Shown piece after piece: positions 1-20,010 of a DNA stretch of 20,654 nt. Position 1 is the stretch's first letter; each line of letters starts with the position of its first letter. The translations under genes and the position numbers were made by a program. The stretch covers positions 1 to 20,654 of IMG/VR virus record IMGVR_UViG_3300025642_000458. One strand, written 5' to 3'. The notes beneath the pieces are model-generated. The model had not been told where the DNA came from. It did not search any database and saw nothing but the letters and a program-made list of their open reading frames with translations. The DNA comes from a virus.

Positions 1-285
1 TTAACCGATGTCTTTCCAGGCTCTTTCCTGCCGTTCGCGGAGCTGTTTAATTAGGTCCGCTTTGCGCCGAAATCCCCATCCGCGTAAAATCTGTTTGATC
101 CGTGCTGCTGGGTTTGGCGCTTTCAGATCGATGAGTGCTGACCTTAATCCCAAATAGCGCCCATACAGCACCGCAACCAGCTCTAGCGCCCCATTCTCCG
201 AAAAAATCCCTCGTGCGCGTTCCTGCCTATTTGAAACCGCTTTAACGGCGAGCTTATCAACCGCCCGTGCACTCCACTTGCGCAT
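1..285 (-). CDS. Hypothetical small basic protein, 94 aa
   Basis: Complete reading frame on the minus strand; its stop codon lies at the very edge of the window. I do not recognise the family. The product is rich in Arg and Lys, has a central hydrophobic helix-like stretch (ELVAVLYGRYLGL, about residues 35-47) and a basic, probably helical C-terminus (RRKADLIKQLRERQERAW). No signal peptide or membrane segment is evident. The start used is the ATG at 283-285, inside a CATATATG palindrome; no strong ribosome site precedes it, so the start is uncertain. It is transcribed away from the head operon, so the gap 286-411 is a divergent control region. In Mu, gene G and the portal and terminase genes precede the protease on the same strand, so a reversed gene here is unusual. 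A small regulator is possible, but no helix-turn-helix was identified. Confidence 0.5.
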   Translation of the reverse strand: MRKWSARAVDKLAVKAVSNRQERARGIFSENGALELVAVLYGRYLGLRSALIDLKAPNPAARIKQILRGWGFRRKADLIKQLRERQERAWKDIG

Positions 286-341
286 ATATGGCCGACAAGT
301 TAGCGTTAGCCTATTGCGAACCGAATTTGATTTGAAATCGG

Positions 342-351
342 TGTTCGAACA
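342..351. promoter_or_regulatory. Perfect 10-bp palindrome TGTTCGAACA in the divergent control region
   Basis: TGTTCGAACA reads the same on both strands. It sits between the minus-strand gene and the head operon, about 30 bp upstream of two further inverted repeats. It could be a regulator site. It does not match the alphaproteobacterial LexA pattern (GTTC repeats spaced by 7). Chance occurrence is not excluded for so short a site. Confidence 0.3.
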
Positions 352-360
352 AATCCAATT

Positions 361-393
361 CTCAAAGCCTGTTTGAGGGTCCGATTTCGGACC
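361..393 (+). promoter_or_regulatory. Tandem inverted repeats before the head operon, including palindrome copy 1
   Basis: Two inverted repeats abut. CTCAAA at 361-366 pairs with TTTGAG at 372-377 around a 5-nt loop; then GGTCCGA at 378-384 pairs with TCGGACC at 387-393 around TT. The 20 nt at 374-393 recur with one difference at 12592-12611, upstream of the tail sheath gene. The last half-site ends 19 nt before the GTG and 37 nt before the ATG of the protease gene. No T-run follows, so a terminator is unlikely; an operator or late-activator site is the better reading. No convincing -10 box was found. Confidence 0.55.
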
Positions 394-411
394 ATCGAGC
401 CATTGTGATCC

Positions 412-1404: not shown

Positions 1405-1459
1405 TCAGGCACGCATGAAACGCCGAAGCATCGGCACTGTTTAATCAGGAGATATCATC

Positions 1460-1858
1460 ATGCTTTCAGGGCCACGCGCCACATACAATCGCATCGCAAC
1501 GTCGCTGTCTATGGCGGTCAAAGCAGGTGCCATGATCCATCAGGGCGGCATTGTTGTTGCGGAGGGTGGCTTTGCGACCAGCGGCCGCGCCGCTCTGGCA
1601 CTCACGGCAATGGGCATGGCAACCGAAACAATTGACAACACCACCGGTGCTGACGGGGATCAAAAGGTCCAGGTTGAAAAGGGCTGCTTTCTCTACGCCA
1701 ATTCGGCGGCAGACCCGGTGGGTGTTGCCTCACTCAATCAGTCCGTTTTCATCGAAGACGACGAAACCGTTTCGGCGACCGACGACGGAGGCGCGCGCTC
1801 ACCGGCCGGCGTTTGTTTTGATGTCGATGACACCGGCGTTTGGGTGCGTTTCACCTAA
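1460..1858 (+). CDS. Putative capsid decoration/cement protein (DUF2190-like)
   Basis: 132-aa protein between the protease and the major head gene, the usual place for a head decoration protein in Mu-like phages. The sequence is rich in Gly, Ala, Val and Asp with short beta-prone stretches (AGAMIHQGGIVVAEGG; KGCFLYAN; GVWVRFT at the C-terminus), as in the small beta-rich cement proteins that bind assembled capsids from outside. AGGAG at 1448-1452 places the ATG at 1460 well. No signal peptide or membrane segment is seen. The family assignment rests on size, composition and position rather than a diagnostic motif. An alternative is another minor head protein. Confidence 0.65.
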   Translation: MLSGPRATYNRIATSLSMAVKAGAMIHQGGIVVAEGGFATSGRAALALTAMGMATETIDNTTGADGDQKVQVEKGCFLYANSAADPVGVASLNQSVFIEDDETVSATDDGGARSPAGVCFDVDDTGVWVRFT

Positions 1859-1912
1859 CAGCAATCAGCCATCGGTTCACGGGATCGGCACCAGGCACAA
1901 AGGACAACCGCA

Positions 1913-2818
1913 ATGATCATCAATCGAACTAATCTCACCAATTTGAACACAGGGTTCAAGACAACTTTCATGGGCGCGTTCGGTGCTGTCGCGCTGGACT
2001 ACCAGCGTCTCGCCACCATCGTGAATTCCAGCACATCAATTGAAACCTATGCCTGGCTGGCGCAGGTGCCGCGCATGCGTGAATGGATTGGCGAGCGCTT
2101 TCACAAGAACCTTCAGAGCGATGCCTACACACTGCGCAACAAGCTCTATGAAAACACGGTGGATGTGCCGCGTATCGCAATTGAGGACGATCAGTACGGC
2201 GTTTACAATCCTGCGATTGGCATGATGGCGGAAGCCGCTGCTGAGTTGCCGGAAGAATTGATCTTTCAGGAAGCCTTGCCGGGTGGATTTGCGACGGCCT
2301 GTTTTGACGGGCAGAACTTCTTTGACCCAGATCACCCGGTTCTGAACAAGGACGGCAAGCCGGTTTCGGTTTCGAACTATACGGATGGTGCACAGCCTGC
2401 CTGGTATCTCATGGACGTGCGGCGCTCAATCAAACCGTTGATCTTTCAGGAGCGTGTCAAGCCTGAATTGATCATCCATGATGACCCGAACAGCTCAACC
2501 AGTGTTTTTGAAAAAGACGTCTATTCCTATGGCACGCGATCCCGCGGCGCAGCCGGCTATGGTTTCTGGCAGATGGCTCATGCCTCCAAAGCTGAACTGA
2601 ACGCTGCAAACTTCAAAGCGGCGCGAACAGCAATGATGAAGCTGACCGCCGATCACGGCAAGCCGCTGGGCGTTGTACCCAACCTGCTTGTTGTCAGTCC
2701 GGATCTGGAAGACGCGGCCGACGAGGTGCTGAGTGTTCAGCGCCTTGCCAACGGCCAGGACAATCCCTTGTACAAGAAAGCCGAAATTCTCGTGTCCCCA
2801 TGGATGGCTGCCGCATAA
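1913..2818 (+). CDS. T: Major head protein, Mu gpT family
   Basis: 301-aa protein of the Mu gpT major capsid family, which forms the icosahedral shell. Recognisable features are the N-terminal NRTNLTNLNTGFKTTFMGAF, the YAWLAQVPRMREWIGER block at about residues 46-62, LRNKLYENTVDVPR near 73-86, and FFDPDHPVLN near 140-149. The C-terminus (NPLYKKAEILVSPWM) is also typical. AAGGA followed by a short spacer precedes the ATG. It lies directly after the decoration gene, and a strong hairpin follows its stop (2836-2862), which suits a gene needing abundant mRNA. Length fits the family. This is one of the most secure assignments in the head block. Confidence 0.93.
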   Translation: MIINRTNLTNLNTGFKTTFMGAFGAVALDYQRLATIVNSSTSIETYAWLAQVPRMREWIGERFHKNLQSDAYTLRNKLYENTVDVPRIAIEDDQYGVYNPAIGMMAEAAAELPEELIFQEALPGGFATACFDGQNFFDPDHPVLNKDGKPVSVSNYTDGAQPAWYLMDVRRSIKPLIFQERVKPELIIHDDPNSSTSVFEKDVYSYGTRSRGAAGYGFWQMAHASKAELNAANFKAARTAMMKLTADHGKPLGVVPNLLVVSPDLEDAADEVLSVQRLANGQDNPLYKKAEILVSPWMAAA

Positions 2819-2835
2819 GCCATCCTCCTCCGGAG

Positions 2836-2862
2836 ACCGCCAGGCACTGGATGTCTGGCGGT
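2836..2862 (+). terminator. Strong hairpin downstream of the major head gene
   Basis: ACCGCCAGGCA at 2836-2846 pairs with TGTCTGGCGGT at 2852-2862 (11 bp with one G-U) around the loop CTGGA. It is followed by TCTTCC rather than a clean U-run, so it is either a leaky terminator or a 3' stabiliser of the abundant head mRNA. It begins 18 nt after the major head stop codon. The pairing is seen in the sequence; the function is inferred. Confidence 0.5.
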
Positions 2863-2929
2863 TCTTCCAAAAGAAGCACTTTGCCTGCCTCTTTTGAAAG
2901 AACCGCATCGCAAAACATGGAGTGAAACG

Positions 2930-3178
2930 ATGGCTGCACGCAAAACAGCAACCCAGCAACCGCCAGCAAATCAATCCGGCCCGTCAGAGGCTGACAGCAA
3001 ACAAGCGGAAGAGACTGAGAACGAAAGTCTCATTGTTCATGTCACCGCCAGCGCCAATCGCCGCCGCGCCGGGATCAACTTCCCCAAGGGGCAGTCCATT
3101 GCGGTCAATGTCGATGAACTGAGCGACGATCAGCAGAACGCGCTTGCTAACGATCCGGTCCTCAAGATCAGCAAATAA
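2930..3178 (+). CDS. Mu gp35-like small head-region protein
   Basis: 82-aa protein from the ATG at 2930 (MAARKTATQQ), chosen because GGAG lies 7 nt upstream; an in-frame ATG at 2894 lacks such a site. The N-terminal 40 residues are polar and probably disordered (Gln, Ser, Glu). The C-terminal half carries the gp35-type pattern: VHVTASANRRRAG, then FPKGQSIAVNVDELSDDQQNAL, then DPVLKIS. Mu gp35 and its relatives lie between the major head protein and gp36, and their exact virion role is poorly known. The position matches exactly. Two other short proteins in this window (5243-5425 and 10155-10313) show a similar beta-then-KG pattern. Confidence 0.75.
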   Translation: MAARKTATQQPPANQSGPSEADSKQAEETENESLIVHVTASANRRRAGINFPKGQSIAVNVDELSDDQQNALANDPVLKISK

Positions 3179-3200
3179 ACAAGCCGCCCAAGGCGAATTG

Positions 3201-3228
3201 GCAGGGGGCGTAATCCGGCGTCCCCTGC
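3201..3228 (+). other. Intergenic hairpin between the gp35-like and gp36-like genes
   Basis: GCAGGGG at 3201-3207 pairs with CCCCTGC at 3222-3228, and three further pairs (one G-U) extend the stem inward, leaving an 8-nt loop. No U-run follows; the next ribosome site comes within 15 nt. It is most likely an mRNA structure affecting stability or spacing rather than a terminator. Confidence 0.4.
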
Positions 3229-3249
3229 AGATCAAACATGAGGCCGCAA

Positions 3250-3690
3250 ATGTCACAATATGCAGCGATTGCAGATATGGAACGGGCGCGCGGCACGGAG
3301 CATGTGCGTAGCCTTTCCGACAAAGACAATATTGGCACGCGTGTTGACGCGGCATTGAATGAAGCCCTGGCGCGCGCATCCTCGCTGGCCGACAGCTACA
3401 TCGACAAAAAATACGAGGTTCCGCTTGGCAATCCGCCCGACTATCTGATTGCGGCCGTCATCGACATCGCAGAATACCAGCTTGCGCCTGACAGCATGAT
3501 TGGCACAGAGAACATGCGCACCCGCTATGAGGATGCGCTCAAGTTGTTCAAGGAAATCGGAAAGGGCAACGTCACGCTGGCTGGCAACAGTCCGGCCTTG
3601 AGCGGCCAGGTTGAAGGTGCAACCGGTTCAAAGGGCGTCCAGATGGTTGCGCCAGAGCGTCTGTTTACCCGCAATTCGGAAATCCTCTGA
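3250..3690 (+). CDS. Mu gp36-like protein (DUF1320), head-tail joining region
   Basis: 146-aa protein of the DUF1320/gp36 family, conserved in Mu-like phages after gp35 and thought to act at the head-tail connection. The N-terminus MSQYAAIADMERARGTEHV, the ALARASSLADSYIDKKYEVPL block (about residues 35-55) and the helical YLIAAVIDIAEYQLAPD stretch followed by RYEDALKLFKEIGKGNVTL are typical. I prefer the ATG at 3250, with TGAGG upstream, over the in-frame ATG at 3238. Its TGA shares one base with the next ATG (TGATG at 3688-3692), so translation is probably coupled to the gpG-like gene. Confidence 0.85.
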   Translation: MSQYAAIADMERARGTEHVRSLSDKDNIGTRVDAALNEALARASSLADSYIDKKYEVPLGNPPDYLIAAVIDIAEYQLAPDSMIGTENMRTRYEDALKLFKEIGKGNVTLAGNSPALSGQVEGATGSKGVQMVAPERLFTRNSEIL

Positions 3691-4160
3691 TGGCTGTTCG
3701 CATCATAGTCTCAGGTGAGGAAGAGGCCGCCCGTGTCATCGGCAGAATTGCCGAACCGGATCGACATGCTTTCCTGGATGGTCTTGGCGGACTTGTTGTG
3801 TCGCAATCGCAACGGCGCATTCGATCCGAGAAAGCCGCTCCGGACGGGACGCCCTGGAAGCCCAACGCCGAAGGCACGTCCATCCTTTTTCGTTCAGGTG
3901 CTCTTGATGACAGCCTGCACCATGAAGTGCGCGGGAACGAAGTCGAAGCCGGCAGCAATCTGATCTATGCGGGTATTCATCAGGACGGCGGTAGCATTGA
4001 ACCTATAACCGCCAATGCGTTGGCGTTTTCGGTTGGTGGCCAATTTGTCCTGGCAAAAAAAGTCACCATGCCGCAAAGGCAATATCTGGGCATATCTCCG
4101 GCCAATGAGGCTGAGATTATCAGCTTTGCCGAAGACTTTATTGTGCGAGGTTTGCAATAG
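3690..4160 (+). CDS. G: Virion morphogenesis protein, Mu gpG / P2 gpS family
   Basis: 156-aa protein of the gpG/gpS tail-completion family (Phage_tail_S), which helps make tails able to join heads. Diagnostic blocks are PDGTPWKPN at 51-59, LFRSGALDDSL at 66-76 and YAGIHQDGG at 93-101. The C-terminus MPQRQYLGISPANEAEI also fits (RxFLG-like, then helical). It starts at the ATG overlapping the previous stop and ends in TAG overlapping the next GTG, so it lies within a tightly coupled run. In Mu the equivalent gene G lies before the protease; here it sits between gp36 and gp37, a rearranged order. Confidence 0.88.
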   Translation: MAVRIIVSGEEEAARVIGRIAEPDRHAFLDGLGGLVVSQSQRRIRSEKAAPDGTPWKPNAEGTSILFRSGALDDSLHHEVRGNEVEAGSNLIYAGIHQDGGSIEPITANALAFSVGGQFVLAKKVTMPQRQYLGISPANEAEIISFAEDFIVRGLQ

Positions 4161-4702
4161 TGCTGACCACGCTTAGAAGCCGCTTCATAGATCATTTGAA
4201 GGCCGCTCATTTAGACTTTCGCGACATCAAGGCGCATTACGGCCGGCTTGAAGAAAGCGAGATCGAAAAAATCTCCGCGCAGACACCGGCCGCGCGTGTC
4301 GGGCTTTGGGGCAGGATCGCGACTGAGATTGTCGCCGATGGCCAGATTGTTATCCGGCCGGGGTTTGCCATTGCCGTGATCACCAAATCCACCGACCTGA
4401 TCCGCAGTCATGATGAAGCCATGCGGCTTTCAACTGATGTGGTGGCCGGCCTTGGGTCTTTTATTCCAGGCGCTCCGAACAGCGAAAACGCTATCGAGGC
4501 TTTGCCTGGTGTTGGCTTGGTTGAAAACATCTCACTGGATATTTCAAACAGCAATGCGCTGGAAGCAAAAGGCATCGCCTTGTGGGGTGTTCTTTGCAAC
4601 GTGCCAATCCGTATAGGTCTATCGTTGGCAAGCCAGGAGGCGGCCGGTCTCTATGACATCGAATGGCCAACCGGATTTGAAAACCCGGAGGATGCGCTAT
4701 GA
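4160..4702 (+). CDS. Mu gp37-like protein (DUF1834-type), joining region
   Basis: 180-aa protein starting with GTG at 4160, which overlaps the preceding TAG by one base (TAGTG). Length, position after gp36 and gpG, and the general layout (N-terminal helix LRSRFIDHLKAAH, then a mixed alpha/beta body) match the gp37/DUF1834 proteins of Mu-like phages. Those are thought to be tail-terminator or joining proteins. No single motif is decisive, so the family call is tentative. The 3' end overlaps the spike gene by ATGA at 4699-4702, implying translational coupling. A P2 gpR-like tail-completion role is an alternative. Confidence 0.55.
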   Translation: MLTTLRSRFIDHLKAAHLDFRDIKAHYGRLEESEIEKISAQTPAARVGLWGRIATEIVADGQIVIRPGFAIAVITKSTDLIRSHDEAMRLSTDVVAGLGSFIPGAPNSENAIEALPGVGLVENISLDISNSNALEAKGIALWGVLCNVPIRIGLSLASQEAAGLYDIEWPTGFENPEDAL

Positions 4703-5232
4703 ACGCACGCATCGAACGGCATCTGGTCAAACAGGCCATTGAAATTCGCGAGTTGAAACGCCGGTTATTGAACACGGTGCGCGAAGGAAAGGTCGTCGAG
4801 CATAGCACCGAGGATCCGCGGTTGATCAAAGTCGATATCGGCCCCGAAGGCCAGCCGGTCAACACGCCCTGGATTGAATGGTCCGAACGGGCGGGGGCCG
4901 TCAAAACCTACGGCCGCCCGTCACTTGGCGAGCGGGTTCTTGTCAGCTCGCCAGATGGTGAGCTTGGCACAGCATCGCGTGCCATTGCGGGCGGGTTTTC
5001 CTCAGACAATGAAAGCCCTGCAGGCCAGGATGGCGAATTGTTGATGACAATCGGCGGCAGTTCATTCCGGTTTCACGCGGACGGGCTGGAGTTAACCGGC
5101 AAGCTCGAGGTCCACGGCGATGTCAAGGCGAATGATGGTGTCTTCGAACACGAAGCCAAAAACGTCGGGAATGATCACAAGCACACTGAAGTGATGAAGG
5201 GCGGCGCTGTCACCGGCCCGCCAGAAGGTTAG
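4699..5232 (+). CDS. V: Baseplate spike / baseplate assembly protein V (P2 gpV)
   Basis: 177-aa homologue of P2 gpV, the trimeric membrane-piercing spike at the centre of the contractile-tail baseplate. The N-terminal half is OB-fold-like (VREGKVVEHSTEDPRLIKVDIG, then WIEWSERAG, RPSLGERVLVSSPDGELG). A repetitive beta segment follows (FRFHADGLELTGKLEVHGDVKANDG). The tip has NDHKHTEVMKGG, with a His-X-His motif at residues 160 and 162; in P2 such a motif on each chain coordinates iron at the needle apex. It is somewhat shorter than P2 gpV (about 211 aa). It opens the P2-ordered tail block and overlaps the previous gene by ATGA. Its stop TAG is followed at once by the ribosome site of the next small gene. 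Confidence 0.93.
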   Translation: MNARIERHLVKQAIEIRELKRRLLNTVREGKVVEHSTEDPRLIKVDIGPEGQPVNTPWIEWSERAGAVKTYGRPSLGERVLVSSPDGELGTASRAIAGGFSSDNESPAGQDGELLMTIGGSSFRFHADGLELTGKLEVHGDVKANDGVFEHEAKNVGNDHKHTEVMKGGAVTGPPEG

Positions 5233-5242
5233 GAGTAGGACC

Positions 5243-5425
5243 ATGAAATTTGAAGTCACAGGCAACAATTGGCCTCGCCGCAAGCCGCTTGCGAAAGGCG
5301 CGATTGTTGAACTTACCGAACGGGCTGCGCGCCACGCATTGATTGATGGTGACATCATGCCGGCAACCAACGTCAAATCGGATTTGGGCAGCAAGCCGGC
5401 ACAGACAAAAAAGGCGGGAAAGTAA
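5243..5425 (+). CDS. Small hypothetical protein between spike and W
   Basis: 60-aa protein (MKFEVTGNNWPRRKPLAKG...) with an excellent ribosome site, TAGGAGTAGGA, immediately before the ATG. I do not recognise a family with confidence. The N-terminal half looks like a short beta-rich domain (FEVTG; KGAIVELTERAARHAL) and the tail is basic and probably disordered (KPAQTKKAGK). The pattern resembles the C-terminal half of the gp35-like protein at 2930-3178. The gene is wedged between the spike and gpW genes and is therefore likely a minor virion or assembly protein. No membrane segment is seen, so it is not an obvious holin. Confidence 0.6.
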   Translation: MKFEVTGNNWPRRKPLAKGAIVELTERAARHALIDGDIMPATNVKSDLGSKPAQTKKAGK

Positions 5426-5426
5426 C

Positions 5427-5804
5427 ATGCTGGCGCCGCGTGGCTTTGACCGCAAGACATTCGCAGTGGTGGAAGGTTGGCCCTATGTGGAAAGCCTGCT
5501 TGCCGATGCGTTGTCAACGCGTAAGGCAACGCGGGTCCTGGCGCGCCGCTATGGCGGTGATATTCCGGCCTATGTGGATGCGCCGGGTAACGTCGAAACC
5601 ATTCTGGCGACACTTTCTGACGTTGCCATGGCCTGTGATCAAATCCGAGATCTGGAAACAGGAGAGGCCGTTGTCCGGTTTGTCTCAGCGCAGGATGTCG
5701 GAGCGGACCGGCGTGGTCGTTACGCTCTGAGCCTGACCTTTGATTATCTGCCCGAAGAGACACAAAACACAATTGCGCTTGATCGTTTGGAGGTGGCCGC
5801 ATGA
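5427..5804 (+). CDS. W: Baseplate wedge protein W (GPW/gp25 family)
   Basis: 125-aa homologue of P2 gpW / T4 gp25, a baseplate wedge protein that links the hub to the first sheath ring. The ATG at 5427 was chosen because it lies just after the previous stop, with GGGAA upstream; the frame is open further 5' but overlaps the preceding gene. Family features include ESLLADALSTRKATRVLARRYGGDIPAYVDAP (in T4 and P2 proteins a LPxR/G-S-x-P-x-L-like stretch) and the C-terminal beta strand RRGRYALSLTFDYLPE. It overlaps gpJ by ATGA at 5801-5804, so the two are probably translationally coupled, as in P2. Confidence 0.85.
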   Translation: MLAPRGFDRKTFAVVEGWPYVESLLADALSTRKATRVLARRYGGDIPAYVDAPGNVETILATLSDVAMACDQIRDLETGEAVVRFVSAQDVGADRRGRYALSLTFDYLPEETQNTIALDRLEVAA

Positions 5805-6661
5805 GCAACGTTGTTGATCTTTCACGCCTGCCGCAACCAACTATCGTTCATGCGCTCGATTGGGATGGTGAGGTGACAGCGTTCATCGCTCGCCTGAAAA
5901 CCCAATTGCCGGAATGGGCGGGCGTCTTTGAAAGCGACAGTTTCATCAAGGCTGCCCGCACCTGGGCTTATCGGCTGACGCTCGAACAGCAATCTCACAA
6001 CCAGGATGCCCGCGCTATTCTCCTGGCTTATGCAGCCGGTGCCGATCTCGATCACCTTGCGGAAAGCTTCTACAGCTTTGCCAATATCGCTCGTGCAACT
6101 GGCGAGAGTGATGCGAGCTTTCGTGATCGCATCCAGTTGGCACCGGAAGCATTTTCGTCTGCCGGCACGCTTGGCGGTTATGCGTTCCATGCTCGCGCTA
6201 TTGACCCAATTGCAATTCCCTATGTCGATGTGTGGTTTCCGCAGCCCGGTTTCGCACAAGTTGCGGTACAAGCAGCTGATGGCATAGACGATGAAGCGGC
6301 GGCCATTTTGTTGGATGCCGTGCGGGAAAAACTGAACAAAGACGAACACAAAAATTCGGACATCCTGACGATCAGCCGGGTGGAGCGCGTTGATGTGTTT
6401 GTGCGTGCTGTGATCCATGTGGCGCGCGGTCCGGATGCCGGGCTTGTCGTTGCGGCCGCCAACGCCGGACTGGGCAAGCTCGAAGCAATCATTTCACGCC
6501 CGCGCCAGGTGCTGTCGGTTTCTGCCCTGGCGAACGCGCTGCATAGCGATGCGGCCATCCGTGTTCTCGTTGAAATGCCTGTGGACGAAGTCGCCACAGG
6601 CGAAGGCCAGGCGATCCGCATTGCTGCCCGCGACATCCGCGCGGAGATAGCCAATGTTTGA
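5801..6661 (+). CDS. J: Baseplate assembly protein J (P2 gpJ)
   Basis: 286-aa homologue of P2 gpJ (Baseplate_J family), which forms the outer wedge of the baseplate. Characteristic blocks are the LAYAAGADLDHLA motif at about residues 75-87, followed by ESDASFRDRIQLAPEAFSSAG at about 102-122, which is nearly a family signature, and GGYAFHARAIDP just after. The C-terminal half has the expected repeated beta-alpha layout (VRAVIHVARGPDAG; VEMPVDEVATGEGQA). It overlaps W upstream (ATGA) and the gpI gene downstream by 8 bases. Length is close to P2 gpJ (about 302 aa). Confidence 0.93.
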   Translation: MSNVVDLSRLPQPTIVHALDWDGEVTAFIARLKTQLPEWAGVFESDSFIKAARTWAYRLTLEQQSHNQDARAILLAYAAGADLDHLAESFYSFANIARATGESDASFRDRIQLAPEAFSSAGTLGGYAFHARAIDPIAIPYVDVWFPQPGFAQVAVQAADGIDDEAAAILLDAVREKLNKDEHKNSDILTISRVERVDVFVRAVIHVARGPDAGLVVAAANAGLGKLEAIISRPRQVLSVSALANALHSDAAIRVLVEMPVDEVATGEGQAIRIAARDIRAEIANV

Positions 6662-7895
6662 CGAGTTCAAGGCTGCAAGCCTGCTTCCACCCAATGCCAC
6701 ATTGCCTGAACATGCACTGGCGGCAACAAGTGGTTTTGTTGACAAGCTCGATGATCCCATTGGCAATATGTGGGACGCCTGGTCAATCCCGGTTGAAGCG
6801 TTGCCGTTCCTGGCTTGGGCAGTGCGGGTGCCGCTTTGGGATGAGCAGTGGTCCGAGCCGAAGAAACGGTCGATCATTGCCGAAGCGCCCGAGCTGAACA
6901 GATCCAAAGGCTCGGTACATGCCATGCGCCGCTTCGTGGAAATCATGGATGGGCGTGTTGTTGACATTACGTTGCCACCCGAAGGCATTTATGTTTCGGA
7001 AGGTCAAACAGAGGCTGAACGGCTAGCCTGGTTGTCACGCTTTGCAGAGATCCGCATCTATGATCGGCCGGGTGGCGATATCGTTGCCTGGGATTTTGCA
7101 AATCAAGCCTATCTTGATGATGGCCTGGACGAAAGCGGCGCATTTCTGGCCGCCTATGCACCAAAGCCAAAGCGTCGTGCGGTTCTGATCGACGGCACGC
7201 AGCAGGCTGACCTGGAAGTGGTTGAGACCCGCACACATCACCAGGACGGATCAACCCATATTGTCGAAAAACTGTTTGGCTCCGGCTTTTCCGAAGGTGG
7301 TTTCTTCATGGATGAAAACTACCTGAAAGACGTACTTGATATCGCAATGCCAGTGCTGTTTTTGCAGATCGACGCTGGGGTGCCTGGTACGAGGTATGGC
7401 GTTGATGCGCGGCTTGTATCGGGAACGGCTGAACGTGTTGTTCAAACCGGCATAGCCGATGATTTCTTTCTTGATGGTATCGACGGCGCCGGCGGCTATC
7501 TGATGCGCTCAATTGCCGACACGATGATTTATGACAGCTTCCGCCTCTATGACGCGGGTCGGTCAACAGGGCGTTTGCCGAGCGGCTATTGTCTGGGTGA
7601 CCCGGATGTCTTTTCGTTGGCTGCAAATCATGTGCTCATAGACATCGATGCGCGGTTTTCCATTCCGCAAAATGTCACGATCCTGAATGACGGTTTTGTC
7701 AGCAACTATATGTTGCGGGACGATGGGAAACATCGCCAGCGGCTTTTTGATGCGGCCAGCGCCGCCAATCCAACGAGCGACAAGACCCTCGCAAGCACCG
7801 CAATCCACCGGCCTATCCGCTTCTCGGATGGACTGCCTTTCGGCAGTTTCAAGTTTGGCCAAATGTTCAATGCAAAGGAGGCCACGAATGCGTGA
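6654..7895 (+). CDS. I: Tail protein I (P2 gpI family) with long C-terminal extension
   Basis: 413-aa protein. Residues 1 to about 150 match the P2 gpI tail-formation family: LLPPNATLPEHALA at 10-23, WSIPVEALPFLAWAVRVPLWDE at 43-64, and KGSVHAMRR at 85-93. In P2 the protein (about 176 aa) sits at the baseplate periphery and connects to fibres. The remaining roughly 250 residues are an extension that I do not recognise, with Gly/Asp-rich, beta-prone segments (FSEGGFFMDENYL; DDFFLDGIDGAGGYL; LNDGFVSNYML) spaced in a loosely repetitive way. The extension may carry or orient the following DUF4815 and fibre proteins. The gene overlaps gpJ and the next gene by 8 bases each. Confidence 0.87.
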   Translation: MFDEFKAASLLPPNATLPEHALAATSGFVDKLDDPIGNMWDAWSIPVEALPFLAWAVRVPLWDEQWSEPKKRSIIAEAPELNRSKGSVHAMRRFVEIMDGRVVDITLPPEGIYVSEGQTEAERLAWLSRFAEIRIYDRPGGDIVAWDFANQAYLDDGLDESGAFLAAYAPKPKRRAVLIDGTQQADLEVVETRTHHQDGSTHIVEKLFGSGFSEGGFFMDENYLKDVLDIAMPVLFLQIDAGVPGTRYGVDARLVSGTAERVVQTGIADDFFLDGIDGAGGYLMRSIADTMIYDSFRLYDAGRSTGRLPSGYCLGDPDVFSLAANHVLIDIDARFSIPQNVTILNDGFVSNYMLRDDGKHRQRLFDAASAANPTSDKTLASTAIHRPIRFSDGLPFGSFKFGQMFNAKEATNA

Positions 7896-8616
7896 CCAGA
7901 TTATTGTTCGCCCCAATCAACAGCTGCTTGAAGCCGACTTGAATAACATCCAGGGGTTTGTGCAGACCTCAATGGATCATGTTGTGCGCGATGGCCTCGG
8001 CGCGTCCAAGCGCTATGTCGGTTTTACAAGCGCGAAGGCGGGCGTGGCAGAGGTCTCGGTAGAACCCGGTCTGCTCTATCTCGGCGGTCCGGTTCACCGT
8101 GCTGACAGTGTCAAGGAATTTGACGTTATTGGCCAGTTGCCCGTTGCGACAAAGCGCATGGCGGTGATTGTGGGGTGGGGATCAACAAGCGAGGAAGATA
8201 TTGAACGCCGCAATTTTCGCACGGACGTAACGACCAACCTGGTTGAACCTCAAGACGTCGCAATGCGCCGCTCGCGCATAGCCAATATCGACATAGTCTA
8301 TGGTCAGGAAAGCGCATCGCCACAATTGCCGCCCATTGCAGACGGCCTCGTCCACATCGCCACAATCACACTGGCGACAACCGGTGTTGAACTGGTCGAA
8401 ATGAACGATGCGGCCGCGTTGCGTTCGTCAGAGGACATCTATGCTCTGGCCCTGTCCAACGAGGCATGGCGTTTAATTGCCGAACCACTCATGTCGACAA
8501 TCCGGACCGACCTTGCTGCCCTGGCTGAAAGTCTGCGCGGGTCGAGTTCGTCACGGCTGGTCGAGCAATTGACCTATGATGTGGCGGTGCTGAAGGAAAC
8601 GGCAGGCATAGACTAG
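7888..8616 (+). CDS. DUF4815-type tail protein, N-terminal part, ending at in-frame amber codon
   Basis: 242 aa from the ATG at 7888 (MRDQIIVRPNQQLLEADLNN), with AAAGGAGG about 7 nt upstream. The N-terminus and the block SVEPGLLYLGGPVHRAD resemble the DUF4815 virion proteins found near gpI and fibres in Mu-like phages. The frame meets TAG at 8614-8616, but the same frame continues without another stop to 10143, and the text just after the TAG (VSYGADRFL, then RIEEGLRF) is itself typical of this family. So this is the first part of one long gene of about 750 residues, interrupted by a single stop. Whether the stop is a mutation or is read through cannot be told from the sequence. The upstream product alone would lack most of the protein. 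Confidence 0.8.
   Translation: MRDQIIVRPNQQLLEADLNNIQGFVQTSMDHVVRDGLGASKRYVGFTSAKAGVAEVSVEPGLLYLGGPVHRADSVKEFDVIGQLPVATKRMAVIVGWGSTSEEDIERRNFRTDVTTNLVEPQDVAMRRSRIANIDIVYGQESASPQLPPIADGLVHIATITLATTGVELVEMNDAAALRSSEDIYALALSNEAWRLIAEPLMSTIRTDLAALAESLRGSSSSRLVEQLTYDVAVLKETAGID
8614..8616 (+). other. In-frame amber codon splitting the DUF4815 gene
   Basis: TAG lies between GAC and GAT in one otherwise uninterrupted frame running 7888-10143. Other genes here (such as those ending at 4160, 5232 and 10143) use TAG as their true stop, so wholesale TAG recoding is unlikely. One substitution, for example CAG to TAG, would explain it. No in-frame ATG follows until 8749, and its AGGAG is 12 nt away; an earlier in-frame TTG at 8647 has no clear ribosome site. 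Confidence 0.85.
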
Positions 8617-8646
8617 GATGCGGTATCCTATGGCGCGGACCGGTTC

Positions 8647-10143
8647 TTGACCGATGATGAAGCGGATCTGTTGCACGCGCAATCTGATTGCCGGATTGAA
8701 GAAGGCTTGCGCTTTAACTGGGACGGTGTGCAGGAGATTGCGCTTTCCATGTTCAATCCGCTGGATCCGGCCGCCACGGTTGATGCCGGCACCGGAATGA
8801 TGTTGCCCAAATATGGAGAAGTTGCGCGCAACATCATCACCGGTTTTGCCGGTGATATTTCGATAAGCCAATATGCAAGCCAGGAAGTGACACTCACGCA
8901 ACATTCAACGACCCGCACACGCATCCGTTACGGGCAGTCCATGAAAGTCTGCACCAACTCCAATTGGTGGAATTCGGGTATCTATGATCCGGCCACCGGC
9001 ATTTTCCGGCTCGATGGTGAGGTCTGGCAAGTTGACGAGGGCGATCTTGCCGAGGCGGTCGTGAACCACCGCATGATCCGCGTTACCCAGTTTTGGGTTG
9101 ATACCTGGCAAACGCCCTATTGGGAGTTGATCACAACCGAACAGGTCATCAATGGCGCGGTAATCGCCCAGACCGTTTTGAATGCGCAGGGCGGCTGGTA
9201 TCTGGGGTCCGAATTTGAATTCACGACGGTTGCAGCTGATGGCGCTGTCACCATGGCGATTTGCGAAACCATACAGGGTGCGCCCGATATGAGCCGCGTC
9301 ATTGCCTCAGTGACCAAACAGGCGGCCGACTTGAAAACCCGGCCGGCAAAAACCCGGTTTGGCGTGCCGCCAATCTACATGGAACGGGGAAAACGCTATG
9401 CCCGCGTATTGATCACGCAAGGTGGCCACCGTGTGGCCATTGCCGACAAGAATTCCTATCAGGAAGGCACCCTGTTCAGTTCGACCGATGGCGCCTGGTT
9501 TACCGGTGATCTGGACAAGGATCTTGTGTCGGTCGATTACTTCGCCAATTTCGCCAATGCGCGATCCGTTGTCGAATTCAGCTCGATCTCCCTTGCTGGC
9601 GGCATAACAGATCTTGATATGCTTTATGACAGCATAGTGCCTGACGGCACGGAAATCGGTTGGGAAATTCAGCCTGAAGGGCAGGCTGTCTGGTCGCGGC
9701 TTGAAGGTGGGGCACTGCAAAGCCTGCTTTACAACAAACCTGCCCAGGTAAAGCTCCGTGCGGTGTTCAATGGCACGTCGGATGTCCAACCCATGTTGCG
9801 TTTGACAAAAAGCCGGCTGAGGGCAACGCGTTCAAAGGACACGTTTGTTGGTGTCTCCAGTGCGATTGTTTTGCCTGCAGCATCTTCAAACATCACCGTC
9901 ACCAGCTACCTTGAGCATTTTGATGATGGGGATCATACGGCGGTCATCAGCCTGTTTGACGATGGCGATGTAGAGCGGGCCGCTTCAGTAGTCGAGGATC
10001 TTCCGGCCAACAAGGGCATACGCCGCAAGGCCACGTTTGCTCTTGGCGGGGCTACGGCAAGCTTTCGGATCAAACATGCGGCAACAGCTGCATCAGACCT
10101 TGATTTGTTTCACATCAATGAAACCGTTTGGCACGGCTACTAG
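8647..10143 (+). CDS. DUF4815-type tail protein, C-terminal part downstream of the amber codon
   Basis: The open part of the same frame after the amber codon; homology-like text in fact resumes directly at 8617. Near the start, DRFLTDDEADLLHAQ and RIEEGLRF match the DUF4815 pattern, followed by IALSMFNPLDPAATVDAGTGMMLP and RTRIRYG. Later regions are beta-rich with Gly/Asp turns (WYLGSEFEFTTV; YLEHFDDGDHTAVISLFDDGD), suggesting a structural virion protein near the fibres. It has no good start of its own: the TTG at 8647 is the first possible one and lacks a ribosome site, which argues that it belongs to the upstream gene. It is followed within 12 nt by a small gene. If not read through, it is a gene fragment. 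Confidence 0.75.
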   Translation: MTDDEADLLHAQSDCRIEEGLRFNWDGVQEIALSMFNPLDPAATVDAGTGMMLPKYGEVARNIITGFAGDISISQYASQEVTLTQHSTTRTRIRYGQSMKVCTNSNWWNSGIYDPATGIFRLDGEVWQVDEGDLAEAVVNHRMIRVTQFWVDTWQTPYWELITTEQVINGAVIAQTVLNAQGGWYLGSEFEFTTVAADGAVTMAICETIQGAPDMSRVIASVTKQAADLKTRPAKTRFGVPPIYMERGKRYARVLITQGGHRVAIADKNSYQEGTLFSSTDGAWFTGDLDKDLVSVDYFANFANARSVVEFSSISLAGGITDLDMLYDSIVPDGTEIGWEIQPEGQAVWSRLEGGALQSLLYNKPAQVKLRAVFNGTSDVQPMLRLTKSRLRATRSKDTFVGVSSAIVLPAASSNITVTSYLEHFDDGDHTAVISLFDDGDVERAASVVEDLPANKGIRRKATFALGGATASFRIKHAATAASDLDLFHINETVWHGY

Positions 10144-10154
10144 GAGTTTTCGCA

Positions 10155-10313
10155 ATGGCAAAATCAACCTCCACAACAGAAAAGCCGATGCGTGTGCGGA
10201 TGATCGAACCTGCTGAGATCGGTCCGACAAAACTCAAGCCGGGCCGGGTCTATACGGTGAGCGCGCAAGTGCAAAAAGACCTCGGCAAAAAGGCGACCGC
10301 AGCTGATGGCTGA
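10155..10313 (+). CDS. Small hypothetical protein before the tail fibre
   Basis: 52-aa protein from the ATG at 10155 (MAKSTSTTEKPMRVRMIEPAE), with TAGGAG 8 nt upstream; that TAG is the stop of the preceding gene. Family not recognised. After a polar N-terminus it has RVRMIEPAEIGPTKLKPGRVYTVSAQVQKDL, a short beta-turn-beta pattern around a KPG turn that resembles the 60-aa protein at 5243-5425 and the gp35-like protein. It overlaps the fibre gene by 8 bases. A minor virion component or assembly factor is possible; no motif supports anything more specific. Confidence 0.6.
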   Translation: MAKSTSTTEKPMRVRMIEPAEIGPTKLKPGRVYTVSAQVQKDLGKKATAADG

Positions 10314-11316
10314 AAAACTGAAATATTCTGCATTCAACGATGAAACGCAGGAATTCATAGCCCTGCTCAACCGTGTCATGGCCGATATCGCTTTGCGCCT
10401 CGGCGGCATTGAAGAAATCGGCGATGACCTGAAGGAGATTGAACAGCGCTATGGTGTAACGGCACTTGAGCGCATTGATGCTTTGCTCACGCCACTGGTT
10501 GCCGCGATGCAGCAGGCCGTAGCGGACGCCCAGGCTCAGCTTGAGGGCCTTGAAAGCGGCACCGCCACGAACTCCTTGCAACTTGGTGCGCAGCTTCCGG
10601 CATTTTATCTGGCACTCGTCAATGCTGTTGGTGTCCTGGATGTCGCCAACGGCGGTACGGGTGGAACGACGCCTGGCGAGGCGCGCACGGCTCTTGAAGT
10701 GACGCCAGCCAACATCGGCACGATGACGACAGTTGAAATCAACGCGGCCATAACTGCGAGTGTCGATGGACTTGTCGATGGTGCGCCGGGTGCTTTGAAT
10801 GTTCTGTCCGAGCTTGCTGCGGCCATGGGCAATGATCCGAATTTCGCGACCACGGTGACAAATGCCCTGGCTGCCAAGTTGAATGCCAGCATCTACACCG
10901 CAGCGGATGTTCTTGCCAAAGTCCTGGCATCCGGTGGAATGGCGACAACGGCGCATTTCCTGACTGGAGCAGCTGACAAGCTTTTATCTGCAGATGAAGT
11001 TTGGGATGCGGTTGAGCCGGTTGCATTGGCTGACGATGCGACGGTTACCGTTGATCTGAATACGGGAACAAACTTCACGCTGACACTGGTCGCAAATCGC
11101 ACCATCTCGTTCAGTAATACCGGCTTAAAAAAGAATTTCATGATTGAGTTTACGCAGGATGGCGCGGGAAACCGCCAGCCAGCTGTTGATGGAACGGGAA
11201 CATTTGGAGATGCCGGGGTGCCCGATCATCAGACGGGAGCCGGAAAGAAAGACTATTGGTTTGGCACTGTTAGCCCTTCCGGACTTGTCCTTCTGTCGTT
11301 CTGGAAGGGCGCTTGA
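10306..11316 (+). CDS. Putative tail fibre protein
   Basis: 336-aa protein, Ala/Gly/Thr-rich, with an N-terminal helical region that may form a trimeric coiled coil (about residues 35-85). A classic fibre linker, NGGTGGTTPGEART, lies at about 115-128; similar GGTG/TT repeats are common in phage tail fibres. The later part is repetitive and beta-prone (ATVTVDLNTGTNFTLTLVANRTISFSNTG) and the C-terminus ends in LLSFWKGA, a form often seen at fibre tips. By position it replaces P2 gene H. It is followed after one base by a further putative tip protein gene. Expected to bind the host surface; the receptor cannot be inferred. Confidence 0.8.
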   Translation: MAEKLKYSAFNDETQEFIALLNRVMADIALRLGGIEEIGDDLKEIEQRYGVTALERIDALLTPLVAAMQQAVADAQAQLEGLESGTATNSLQLGAQLPAFYLALVNAVGVLDVANGGTGGTTPGEARTALEVTPANIGTMTTVEINAAITASVDGLVDGAPGALNVLSELAAAMGNDPNFATTVTNALAAKLNASIYTAADVLAKVLASGGMATTAHFLTGAADKLLSADEVWDAVEPVALADDATVTVDLNTGTNFTLTLVANRTISFSNTGLKKNFMIEFTQDGAGNRQPAVDGTGTFGDAGVPDHQTGAGKKDYWFGTVSPSGLVLLSFWKGA

Positions 11317-11317
11317 T

Positions 11318-11971
11318 ATGGCGGTCCCTGGGACAATGCCCCAGATGACCGGGTTCGGGAGAAATGGCGCTGGTATAGAGCTGACCTATCTAGACTTTGC
11401 AGAGAGTTTCAACTCAAAAAATATCACTGGCCCTGCCTTGATCCTGGCGGGCGATCTGCTTGTTCACCTGCAATGGAGATACTGGACCGGGAGCACCCCG
11501 ACTGCGGTCGTGCCAACGGGCTTTAGCTCCCTGGTGAATTTTGCCGGCATTGGCAACACGCGCGGGATCATCAGCTTCAAGATTGCTGATGGAAGTGAAG
11601 CCAATGCCGTGATCGCAGGAATGAACTCTCAGCACCAGTCGCAGAACTTCATGATCGTGTCCCGTCCCAGCGCAGCAATCACCGGCATCAACACGACAAC
11701 CTTTGCTGGACAGGGCACAAACAGCGATCCTGACCCACGGGTTATTGCCGCAGCGTCACTGGACCCAGCCAGTATCGGGATGGCCCTATTCTATCATACG
11801 GCATCGCCTGTCATAACGTTCAGCCCTGTCTCAGGAAATACAACCAAAACCGGAAACAATTGCAACACCTACTGGGCCATCCAGAACGGCAGTCCCGTCA
11901 ATATCAGCGTCGACATGAATGATGCGGGCGGCGCGCTGATGATGATTGGTGGCGCGGTCAGCGTCTATTGA
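11318..11971 (+). CDS. Putative tail tip / receptor-binding protein
   Basis: 217 aa from the ATG at 11318 (MAVPGTMPQMTGFGRNGAG), one base after the fibre stop; GGAAGGG lies upstream. The frame is open further 5', but that part overlaps the fibre gene. I do not recognise a defined family. Composition is Gly/Ala/Ser/Thr/Asn-rich with many short strands (LAGDLLVHLQWRYW; SQNFMIVSRPSAAITGINTTTF; MGMALFYHTASPVITFSP-like text) and a hydrophobic C-terminus (GGALMMIGGAVSVY), giving the look of a beta-sandwich. Position directly after the fibre and before a putative assembly protein suggests a virion tip domain. An adhesin-like function is an inference. Confidence 0.65.
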   Translation: MAVPGTMPQMTGFGRNGAGIELTYLDFAESFNSKNITGPALILAGDLLVHLQWRYWTGSTPTAVVPTGFSSLVNFAGIGNTRGIISFKIADGSEANAVIAGMNSQHQSQNFMIVSRPSAAITGINTTTFAGQGTNSDPDPRVIAAASLDPASIGMALFYHTASPVITFSPVSGNTTKTGNNCNTYWAIQNGSPVNISVDMNDAGGALMMIGGAVSVY

Positions 11972-11985
11972 AGAAAGACAGAACA

Positions 11986-12498
11986 ATGGGACAACTCTAC
12001 GCCAAGAATCCGGATGATACGATTGGCGATCTGTGGACGCCGCGTGAAAGGATTGGCGGCATCCAGTATGCCGGATCCATTGCGGCAAAATGGAGCGACG
12101 TGGATCTCGCAGGGATTGGTCTGTTCCGATTGATTGATGCTGGCCCTGTTCCGGCCGGCAAGCAGATAGTCAGCAGCGAGATCGTGTTCAATGGAACATG
12201 TTTTGAGCGGCAAAATACGCTTGAAGATATCCCAGCACCTTTGCCGCAGGACTGTCCTCTGAACCCAGCGCAGTTTGATGCAATCCTCGCATTGCTGGAG
12301 ATCACCATCGAACAGATCGACACAGCGATCGACGCGGCCATATCCGATCCGGTTGATAATGCCTTCGCCAAGGCCAAGGTTCGCAAGGCGACGGCGTATC
12401 GGCGCGACAATGACCTGTTTGGGCTTCTTGCGCCGCTCATTGGTATTACAGACGAGCAGATCGATCAGGCGTGGATGCAGGCAAAAGACTTTCACTAG
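11986..12498 (+). CDS. Putative tail fibre assembly protein
   Basis: 170 aa from the ATG at 11986 (MGQLYAKNPDDTIGDLW), with GAAAGA upstream; an in-frame TTG at 11968 is less likely. The N-terminal half is beta-prone; the C-terminal half is helical and acidic-basic alternating (AILALLEITIEQIDTAIDAAI; KAKVRKATAYRRDNDLF; TDEQIDQAWMQAKDF). Small proteins with helical C-termini just after fibre genes are often fibre-folding chaperones (the place of P2 gene G), which is the basis of the call. No diagnostic motif was found. It ends the baseplate/fibre block; about 195 bp of control DNA follow before the sheath. Confidence 0.5.
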   Translation: MGQLYAKNPDDTIGDLWTPRERIGGIQYAGSIAAKWSDVDLAGIGLFRLIDAGPVPAGKQIVSSEIVFNGTCFERQNTLEDIPAPLPQDCPLNPAQFDAILALLEITIEQIDTAIDAAISDPVDNAFAKAKVRKATAYRRDNDLFGLLAPLIGITDEQIDQAWMQAKDFH

Positions 12499-12694
12499 TT
12501 CGGTGGGTGGCAACTTGCACTGCGTTGCCGGCTCTTTTACAAGAGAGCCAACCACGCGAAATATCCCAATGTCCAAACAATGATGTGTCACTGAGGGTCC
12601 GAATTCGGACCCTCAATTAGTTTTCAACCCTCTTGTAAAACGGTTTTGAAGCCCGCCACTGGCGGCGTCAAACCATATATAAAAGGCTTGGATA
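12499..12694 (+). other. Non-coding control region before the tail sheath operon
   Basis: About 195 bp without a supported gene. It holds a hairpin with GGCTCT and AGAGCC arms (about 12530-12549), the 24-bp perfect palindrome at 12592-12615, a TGTAAAA stretch at 12634-12640 about 33 nt from the palindrome centre that could serve as a -10-like element, a CCGCC/GGCGG mini-hairpin near 12653-12665, and an AT-rich CATATATAAAAGG just before the sheath ribosome site. It probably ends one late transcript and starts another. Confidence 0.55.
12592..12615 (+). promoter_or_regulatory. 24-bp perfect palindrome, copy 2 of the late-operon motif
   Basis: Each arm is TGAGGGTCCGAA and its complement; the core is GGTCCGAATTCGGACC. 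The first 20 nt recur at 374-393 before the head operon with a single change at the centre. The sequence ATTAGTTTT follows, so a factor-independent terminator (10-bp stem, AATT loop) is also possible at this copy. The first copy has no such tail, which favours a protein-binding site shared by two late transcripts. Confidence 0.6.
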
Positions 12695-13930
12695 ATGGCA
12701 CAACTCGGATATCAGCACGGCACTCGCGTTACCCGTGTGCCGGAAGGCACAATCAGTCTTAAGGTAATCGATCAGGCGACGGTCGGCATTGTTGGAACTG
12801 CTCCGGACGCCGACGATGCGCTCTTCCCAGTCGATACGCCCATTGCCCTGACCGGCGACGTGACGCAGATTGAAGCGCTTGGTGCGACCGGCACAATCAA
12901 GGACCAGATCAACAATATGATTCTGGCGTCCGGTGGAACCTATCTGCCGAAAACCGCTATTGTTCGTGTAGCGGAAGGTGTCGACGCGGATGCGACACTG
13001 GCCAATATGGTTGGCGCTGCCGGATCGTTGACCGGGTTTCATGCCTTCAAGTCCTGGTCGTCCGAACTCGGTTTCAAACCCAAAACATATATGGCGCCTG
13101 GCTTTGCCGGTTTGCGGCCCGGTGATGCCGCGAACCCGCTTGTTGCGGCTATGTCGCCCTGGCTGGAACGCCAGCGTGCCATGATGCTGGTTGGTGCGCC
13201 ATCAACCACCAAAGAGGATGCCGTTATATATCGCGATGATACGGGATCGATGTCCGTTGAAATCATTGATCCGCGCGCCCTTGCATCCGATCCGGATACG
13301 GGCCTGCCAATAGCCGTTCCTATTGAGCCGTTTATCATGGGTCTTGGTGTGCGCATCATCCGGGATGGTGACAGTGAAAGCAAAAAACCGGCCGGCTTTT
13401 GGGTGTCCTGGTCAAATGCCGAGATCGGCGGCATTGTCGGTGTAGAGCGACCTGTCAGCTTCGATTACACAGATCCCGATACGGAAAGCCATTTCCTCAA
13501 CGAAAACCGCATCAACACGATTGTCCGTGACAATGGCTGGCGCTACTGGGGCGGGCTTACCGCATCCTCCGATGATGACTGGATGTTTGCAAACGTCGTG
13601 CGCACCCGATACGCGCTGGAAGAAATGGTCGCCCGTGACTTTGCGCCGATTATTGATGCGCCAATGAATGCGCCGCAGGTCATTGCTGCCATTGTGTCGC
13701 TTGACGAAAAGCTGAAGGACTTTCAGCAGGCCGGGGCGATCATCGGCGGCCGGGCCTATTTCCTTCCTGAAGAAAACAGCTCCGGCAATCTCCGCCAGGG
13801 AAAACTGCGCATCGAGTTTGATGCGGAGGAAACACCGCCAATCCATATGTTGGAAGTCGGTTCACACAAGAACATCAAATATTTCGACATTCTGGTTGAC
13901 GACATCGTCCGCGAGCTTGCCAGCGTCTAA
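12695..13930 (+). CDS. FI: Tail sheath protein (P2 FI family)
   Basis: 411-aa contractile sheath subunit; rings of it surround the tube and contract on injection. The N-terminus (HGTRVTRVPEGTISLKVIDQATVGIVGTAPDAD) is typical of P2-like sheaths, as are the APGFAG and LVAAMSPWLERQRAMMLVGAP segments (about residues 130-170). The C-terminal domain has FLNENRINTIVRDNGWRYWGG (about 265-290), the conserved NxxGxxxWG-type element, and VRTRYALEEMVARDFAPIID. Length is close to P2 FI (about 396 aa). The ATG at 12695 has AAAAGG at a good distance. It opens the second tail block behind the palindromic control region. Confidence 0.95.
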   Translation: MAQLGYQHGTRVTRVPEGTISLKVIDQATVGIVGTAPDADDALFPVDTPIALTGDVTQIEALGATGTIKDQINNMILASGGTYLPKTAIVRVAEGVDADATLANMVGAAGSLTGFHAFKSWSSELGFKPKTYMAPGFAGLRPGDAANPLVAAMSPWLERQRAMMLVGAPSTTKEDAVIYRDDTGSMSVEIIDPRALASDPDTGLPIAVPIEPFIMGLGVRIIRDGDSESKKPAGFWVSWSNAEIGGIVGVERPVSFDYTDPDTESHFLNENRINTIVRDNGWRYWGGLTASSDDDWMFANVVRTRYALEEMVARDFAPIIDAPMNAPQVIAAIVSLDEKLKDFQQAGAIIGGRAYFLPEENSSGNLRQGKLRIEFDAEETPPIHMLEVGSHKNIKYFDILVDDIVRELASV

Positions 13931-13959
13931 ACGGCCAGCACTCACAAAGGAGAACGACA

Positions 13960-14463
13960 ATGAAAGATATCGGTCGCGCCTGGTCCGCCTTCATTGAAGA
14001 CAAGGGCAAATTTGCGGAGGCCGCAAGTTACAAGGAACCAGACCTGAAATGGATACGCGAGCAATACGCCGGCGGCGGTGCCATTGCCGAGCGATCCGTT
14101 CCGATGCTGTTGGAAGAGCTGAAATGTGAACTCACAATGTACAATTATGATCCGGATGCCATTGCAGCATTTGGTTTTGCAGTGGGTAGTCCTCAAGCGT
14201 TTCAGTTTCGGCGGGAGCTGTTCGACACTTCAGCGCAGACAACATCGTCGATTGTCGTGCACACACTGGCAACTGTGGATCTTGAATTTCCCGATTGGGA
14301 TCGCAAGAAACTTGAGGGCGTCAAACTGCCGTTGTTTGTGACCACCTATCGTCGTTTCCGTGATGGTGTCCTTGAACTGCATATCGATCCGGAGGGCGGC
14401 ATTATTGATATGGGCGACGGTAATATTCTCGCCGAAACAAATCGTGCCATCGGGCGGAACTGA
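13960..14463 (+). CDS. FII: Major tail tube protein (P2 FII family)
   Basis: 167-aa tube subunit, the inner hexameric tube through which DNA passes. It directly follows the sheath as in P2 and is close to FII in length (about 172 aa). Family features are GKFAEAASYKEPDLKWIREQYAGGG near the N-terminus, the ELKCELTMYNYDPDAIAAFGFAVG block in the middle, and the RFRDGVLELHIDPEGGIIDMGDGNILAETNRAIG C-terminus, which is very typical (EIDxxNxxxxVxGxDxxxxxRxALG in relatives). AGGAG lies 8 nt before the ATG. High expression is expected since hundreds of copies are needed per virion. Confidence 0.93.
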   Translation: MKDIGRAWSAFIEDKGKFAEAASYKEPDLKWIREQYAGGGAIAERSVPMLLEELKCELTMYNYDPDAIAAFGFAVGSPQAFQFRRELFDTSAQTTSSIVVHTLATVDLEFPDWDRKKLEGVKLPLFVTTYRRFRDGVLELHIDPEGGIIDMGDGNILAETNRAIGRN

Positions 14464-14468
14464 TCACC

Positions 14469-14807
14469 ATGGCAAAGGAAACAATCACGCTTAAAAGGCC
14501 AGTTGATCTTCGCGGAGCTGACGGCAAAGGCGCGCATGTATCAAAGCTTGAACTTCGTGACATGGATGTGGGCGACTTTCTCGATGCATGCAAGGATTGC
14601 CGGGAGGGCGCAAGCCGCATGGAGCAGGAATTGCATGTGGTTTCGATCTGCTCGGGCGTTGGTATGTCCGTGCTTCGGGCGATCAAGCCTGGTGACTTGT
14701 ACCAGCTTTCCAACTGGTATGATCGACAGTGGGCAACGCCGACTGAAACGCAGGAGGGTGGCGAGGGAGCCGACGTGGACCCTTCAGGGGACAGCGTGGC
14801 GAGGTGA
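14469..14807 (+). CDS. E: Tail assembly chaperone E (P2 gpE-like)
   Basis: 112-aa protein in the place of P2 gpE, between the tube and tape measure genes. It begins with the TAC-type pattern of acceptance of a beta-rich N-terminus (ETITLKRPVDLRGADGKGAHVSKLELRDMDVGDFLDA), followed by a helical segment and an acidic Gly-rich tail (ETQEGGEGADVDPSGD). In P2 and lambda such chaperones are made in a short and a -1-frameshifted long form that wrap the tape measure. Here the -1 frame is open from 14747 through E's stop and encodes an E'-like tail, so the same arrangement is likely, but I see no classical slippery heptamer in the shared window. Confidence 0.82.
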   Translation: MAKETITLKRPVDLRGADGKGAHVSKLELRDMDVGDFLDACKDCREGASRMEQELHVVSICSGVGMSVLRAIKPGDLYQLSNWYDRQWATPTETQEGGEGADVDPSGDSVAR

Positions 14808-14980
14808 TCCTTCTGGAGGTGATGGAAAATGTCGCTTCCATCTATCCATTCGGCATGTCTGATTTGCGCTCTTTAACACTGATGCAGTTACGGTTTTTTT
14901 CACAAACGGCGAATGCGCGTCGAATGCGCAGCACAGGTGATGTCCATCGGATTTTGGAGACACTGTTAACGAAAGGCTGA
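14804..14980 (+). CDS. E'-like tail assembly extension in the -1 frame
   Basis: An open stretch in the -1 frame relative to E runs from 14747 to the TGA at 14978-14980. From the GTG at 14804, which overlaps the E stop as GTGA, it would give 58 aa containing ENVASIYPFGMSDLRSLTLMQL. This resembles the P2 gpE' pattern of an FxWPxSE-like block followed by MSLxEL. Expression could be by -1 frameshifting near the end of E, giving an E-E' fusion, or by coupled restart at the GTG. The ATG at 14822 in the same frame has GGAGG only 2 nt away, too close for good use. It fills the gap before the tape measure gene, which has no other coding explanation. Confidence 0.62.
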   Translation: MILLEVMENVASIYPFGMSDLRSLTLMQLRFFSQTANARRMRSTGDVHRILETLLTKG

Positions 14981-14987
14981 CATCAAA

Positions 14988-17147: not shown

Positions 17148-17152
17148 AGCAA

Positions 17153-19081: not shown

Positions 19082-19100
19082 AGGACAACTCAGTGTGGCT
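19038..19100 (+). promoter_or_regulatory. Possible Com-controlled stem occluding the methyltransferase start
   Basis: CACTGAG at 19042-19048, inside com, is complementary to CTCAGTG at 19089-19095, and with U96 bulged the stem extends by C41-G97, C40-G98, G39-C99 and a G-U pair. The GTG start codon (19095-19097) thus lies in the stem; the AAGGA ribosome site (19081-19085) lies at the edge of the 40-nt loop, which also contains ACGC-CAGGA-GCGT (19060-19072). This recalls the inhibitory stem-loop of Mu mom. The pairing is seen; the regulation is inferred. Confidence 0.45.
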
Positions 19101-19997: not shown

Positions 19998-20010
19998 GGA
20001 AAAAGATGTA

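Follow-up and report, generated by a model that had tools for sequence, protein, structure and literature searches.

Does a single in-frame amber codon in a phage tail gene mark a broken gene, or one that is expressed in two lengths? The question was raised by a 20,654-nt stretch of viral DNA (IMG/VR record IMGVR_UViG_3300025642_000458; hereafter, the window). A first-pass annotation, made from the letters alone, had described a frame from 7888 to 10143 that is interrupted by one TAG and had offered either a recent nonsense mutation or stop readthrough that yields the tail protein in a short and a long form.

The interrupted gene and its family

Translation of the frame bore this description out, in that the TAG at 8614-8616, corresponding to residue 243, was the only internal stop, and the part from 8617 to the terminal TAG (10141-10143) contained neither an additional stop nor a frameshift. 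The ATG at 7888 is preceded by a good Shine-Dalgarno sequence (7874-7881), and the gene start overlaps the upstream tail gene by 8 nt. The downstream part had been said to have no good start, and indeed its first in-frame start codon, TTG 8647, was without a clear ribosome site. The gene is located between tail protein I and tail fibre genes, an arrangement largely shared by phages BDU-MI-1 and AmM-1.

Table 1. Positions of the baseplate gene, its parts, and its neighbours in the window
Feature	Position	Strand	Evidence
Shine-Dalgarno sequence of the baseplate gene, AAAGGAGG	7874..7881	+	Sequence
N-terminal part of the baseplate gene, 242 codons and premature stop	7888..8616	+	Translation; PHROG 17470 positions 1-240
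Premature TAG, residue 243, in modelled linker between coiled coil and beta-rich part	8614..8616	+	Translation; structure model; sense codon in all relatives
C-terminal part, 508 codons, behind the stop, to the conserved end of the family	8617..10143	+	PHROG 17470 positions 245-751; ends of relatives coincide
Upstream neighbour, tail protein I family (Tail_P2_I), intact	6654..7895	+	E 3.7e-23
Downstream neighbour, tail fibre gene	10306..11316	+	Profile match

The text on either side of the TAG had been attributed to one family, and this held. Specifically, residues 1-239 of the N-terminal half matched positions 1-240 of the PHROG 17470 profile (E 8e-45), and the second half (its residues 1-504) matched positions 245-751 of 755 (E 2e-133), such that the two halves were colinear over the whole 755-position profile. 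The frame of ~750 codons, unbroken in relatives, is broken here at residue 243. Judged by its sequence, the window gene is a broken member of PHROG 17470, a family with function not assigned in PHROG.

The label "DUF4815-type" stood in a broad sense but not in the strict one. Pfam DUF4815 (PF16075) scored 11.8 bits, below the curated cut-off of 30, and the read-through protein (whole 7888-10143) had no match when searched against Pfam. On the other hand, a profile built from 30 relatives matched the baseplate DUF4815 protein of Staphylococcus phage phi812 by sequence (E 6e-17), and the same protein (PDB 9euf) was the best match to the predicted fold (Z 21.7 over 567 residues), although it is ~1,150 residues long and shares 16% identity with the window protein. 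The analysis connects a PHROG family of unknown function with a phi812 baseplate protein whose structure has been solved. Our literature search found no paper describing the 9euf structure, and DUF4815 was mentioned in two of the papers searched, neither of which, judging from the abstracts, deals with phage tails.

Within the adjacent tail fibre gene, 62 bases (10810-10871, +) were 77-87% identical to phage-type plasmid tail fibre genes of E. coli and E. fergusonii, a closeness that is unusual for an alphaproteobacterial phage. Inverted repeats between 7600 and 13000, where a Mu-type invertible fibre segment was sought, were short and imperfect.

Relatives, prophage context, and age of the stop

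All of the ~70 full-length relatives recovered (phages, IMG/VR contigs, and Hyphomicrobiales genomes; partly redundant, with overlapping search sets) were unsplit and had no internal stop. Within the order (Hyphomicrobiales, 397 genomes), 29 places spanned nearly the whole profile (0/29 with an internal stop), and 385 genomes of the same class contributed one further near-full-length place. Forty-six viral loci were fetched with single, more distant family members as queries; 41 were full-length and unsplit, four were truncated at the edge of a contig, and the remaining one (L097) held a 517-aa copy. Two genes divided at the TAG were found in none of the order genomes, class genomes, or viral loci. 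Separately, we noted two decayed copies of the baseplate gene in other genomes, which fit the view of the window gene as a broken one: a 517-aa open frame at G034:C2:499565-500779 (see L097) matched only profile positions 63-185 and 470-754, the middle being missing, and in L046 a TAG lies near codon 12 and the match ends at approximately residue 168.

The nearest relatives, with ~68% identity over the C-terminal part, were the prophage of Mesorhizobium sp. Root157 (L001, L004) and an IMG/VR contig (L005), in all of which the gene is a single one of 750 codons. Within the genus of the Root157 strain, a search for closer relatives returned only Root157 itself (68%) and two weak partial matches. 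At the stop column the nearest relatives had Glu, while others had mostly Asp or Glu, but also Ala, Ser, Gln, and more; the codon check in close relatives that had been proposed earlier thus gave a sense residue everywhere and no split pair. Moreover, the genes of the relatives end where the window gene ends (10143). The PHROG 17470 proteins of Bradyrhizobium phage BDU-MI-1 (ARQ95336.1), Aurantimonas phage AmM-1 (BAP94474.1), and the Root157 prophage resemble that of the window in length, in their place in the tail module, and in homology over the whole length, but are encoded by single unbroken genes, whereas the window gene has an internal stop. Since relatives are uniformly unsplit with sense at this column, one long protein is ancestral, and the stop is private to the window lineage. 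A degenerate pattern spanning the site, with which a variant of the window phage carrying another codon was sought, recovered only the identical contig and the two known relatives.

That identical contig, IMGVR_UViG_3300035698_032079, and the window were the only TAG-bearing records and represent one haplotype. Since the gene is intact apart from one changed base, seen in assemblies rather than raw reads, the TAG could come from sequencing or assembly error. However, the contig was identical to window positions 1-11658, TAG included, and extended 145 bases further upstream; its ends differ from those of the window, so it was assembled separately, though perhaps from shared reads. The TAG is therefore probably real, a chance assembly error is unlikely, and we consider error of either kind improbable. 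Together with a second contig from the same sample, IMGVR_UViG_3300035698_032625, it covers the whole window with zero mismatches, the two overlapping near 11555-11658.

The second contig also placed the phage in a chromosome. It was identical to window positions 11555-20654 and continued past the right end of the window into a D-Ala-D-Ala ligase gene (ddl; PF07478, 3e-35), the DNA of which matched 350 of the 397 Hyphomicrobiales genomes (best, 74%). Similarity to such a genome began at projected window coordinate 21206, and the right junction accordingly lies somewhere to the left of this point. The window encodes a Mu-type protease (PF10123, 7.8e-52), a gpT capsid protein (PF10124, 2.3e-110), and Com (PF10122, 8.5e-14). 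Given these genes, and because the contig continues into chromosomal ddl, the phage is an integrated Mu-like prophage, unless contig _032625 is chimeric. Its Mu-type transposase genes would be expected beyond the window. Between dcm and the host ddl was a TIR-domain gene (20037-20654, -; PF10137; PADLOC PDC-S35, E 2e-71), a candidate anti-phage defence gene that could be either phage cargo or a host gene.

The prophage otherwise seemed in good repair. Those head and tail genes that could be compared with L004 and L005 were intact, the fibre region being too divergent from both for full comparison, and the end of 17769-18770, considered as a second nonsense mutation, turned out to be a normal gene end. 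Divergence from L004 at third codon positions was 0.60 and 0.58 in the two parts of the baseplate gene, versus 0.20-0.29 at positions 1 and 2. Of the two parts, the one downstream of the stop was better conserved, as it was in the intact pair L004/L005. Nearly all of the divergence is therefore older than the stop. The computed chance of 508 unselected codons remaining free of a new stop was ~0.6 at 1% divergence and 0.09 at 5%. The unbroken downstream codons hence point to a stop that is recent or to a downstream part that is still in use, of which a recent stop is the simpler option.

Probable effect of the stop

Considered together, we find it very likely that the PHROG 17470 baseplate gene of an integrated Mu-like prophage took a single, probably recent nonsense mutation, and the gene most likely makes a truncated protein. 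Thus, of the two readings first offered, the nonsense mutation is the one favoured by unsplit relatives, a stop confined to one lineage, and an integrated prophage. Translation would stop after 242 residues, yielding an N-terminal beta domain and coiled coil that lack the beta-rich C-terminal part of 508 residues. To a dormant prophage, loss of a late gene by a nonsense mutation has no immediate cost. The mutation would escape counter-selection as long as the prophage is dormant, and upon induction the baseplate of the particles would probably be defective, with loss of tail function. Mobile elements hold more than their share of in-frame stops, and such stops are mostly short-lived (PMC7918605), a pattern that fits a plain nonsense mutation.

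A structure model with the TAG read as a residue (mean pLDDT 79.5, pTM 0.49) comprised a beta domain (residues 41-172), two long helices (181-216 and 222-238), and a beta-rich region (247-751) with domains like lectin-like and carbohydrate-binding folds. Residue 243 was placed in the linker that joins the N-terminal coiled-coil module to the beta-rich part. The short product would therefore be the whole N-terminal module minus the presumed receptor- or arm-forming part, and a stable 242-residue fragment is plausible on this model; it may fold and even take its place, but the particle would probably be defective. The linker position, which was spotted post hoc, is suggestive of a tolerable truncation. 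Three observations count against a plain nonsense mutation: no damage was seen in the other head and tail genes compared, so that the prophage is not generally decayed; a clean downstream frame is also expected if that part is still used; and the stop falls in a linker between domains, the place at which truncation would be tolerated best.

The same intact frame and linker would suit programmed or tolerated readthrough, perhaps by a host suppressor tRNA, in which the baseplate uses a 242-aa as well as a 751-aa protein; according to the model the short one could fold, and it has been proposed that bacteria tolerate some in-frame stops (PMC7918605). The cases in that work are alike in having a single in-frame stop and in being common in mobile elements, but the window stop is confined to one haplotype. 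Against readthrough, none of the ~70 relatives, which make one long protein, had a stop here. Nor did RNA around the TAG fold better than shuffles (z 0.18, -0.30, and -0.73; pseudoknot-free folds), and the search for a suppressor tRNA, which covered the 20,654-nt window, found no tRNA at all. The stop therefore had neither the conservation nor the stimulatory RNA structure of programmed readthrough, and the earlier proposal of a tail protein in two lengths found no support; we give it little credence. A specific form of the idea, in which a leaky amber at the linker lets the short module, lacking the beta-rich domains, and the full-length form share one baseplate position at a set ratio, seems equally doubtful. 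Readthrough, if shown, would give phages a means of baseplate variation that is new.

Nor do we favour a split of one gene into two working ones, with the C-terminal protein made by downstream re-initiation. In-frame starts do exist behind the stop (TTG 8647 and ATG 8749), but both lack a well-placed ribosome site, neither is conserved in relatives, and no relative is split at the TAG, making this highly improbable. That the phage or host decodes TAG as an amino acid is close to negligible in our view, the open frame being the one point in its favour: TAG ends four other genes as well as the conserved 3' end of the baseplate gene, which makes recoding unlikely, and zero internal TAGs were found in the 4,874 codons of the 18 coding stretches of the window. 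The earlier doubt about genome-wide recoding was well placed. We are left with an ordinary broken prophage gene and no sign of a regulated two-length protein. With this mutation the Mu-like prophage probably has a defect in assembling its tail or in adsorption; otherwise the broken gene matters little.

A second reading frame over dcm

A separate observation from the same window is stronger than the finding on the TAG. The cytosine methyltransferase gene dcm (19095-19997, +), which follows com, is fully overlapped by a second frame of 307 codons (19093-20016, +). Seven relatives of the same order had both frames open, their second-frame proteins showing 45-53% identity, and eight sequences had zero second-frame stops, where codon shuffles predicted 0.9-4.6 each. 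Where the methyltransferase residue was the same, the codon was identical in 62-69% of cases versus 35-37% expected; in control genes of the window, for which the relatives differ, identical codons amounted to 39-48% versus 38-44% expected. Synonymous codon choice within dcm thus appears strongly constrained. Additionally, the second frame was present at the same offset in 86/86 viral loci, and 80 distinct viral loci had five second-frame stops in comparison with 145 predicted by shuffles, these loci having been fetched by similarity to the second frame, which biases the sample towards it.

The second frame (19093-20016) is apparently under selection, and together with dcm it looks like a widespread dual-coding gene. 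The C-terminus of its protein resembles PHROG 1008 and 27243, AlphaFold2 returned no confident fold (mean pLDDT 41), and our literature search found no paper on a second frame over dcm. The Mu-type Com zinc-ribbon gene is immediately ahead of dcm (18923-19997, +, for the pair). In phage Mu, com is followed by mom, whereas in the window phage dcm occupies that place, and dcm, the second frame, or both might be under the translational control of Com.
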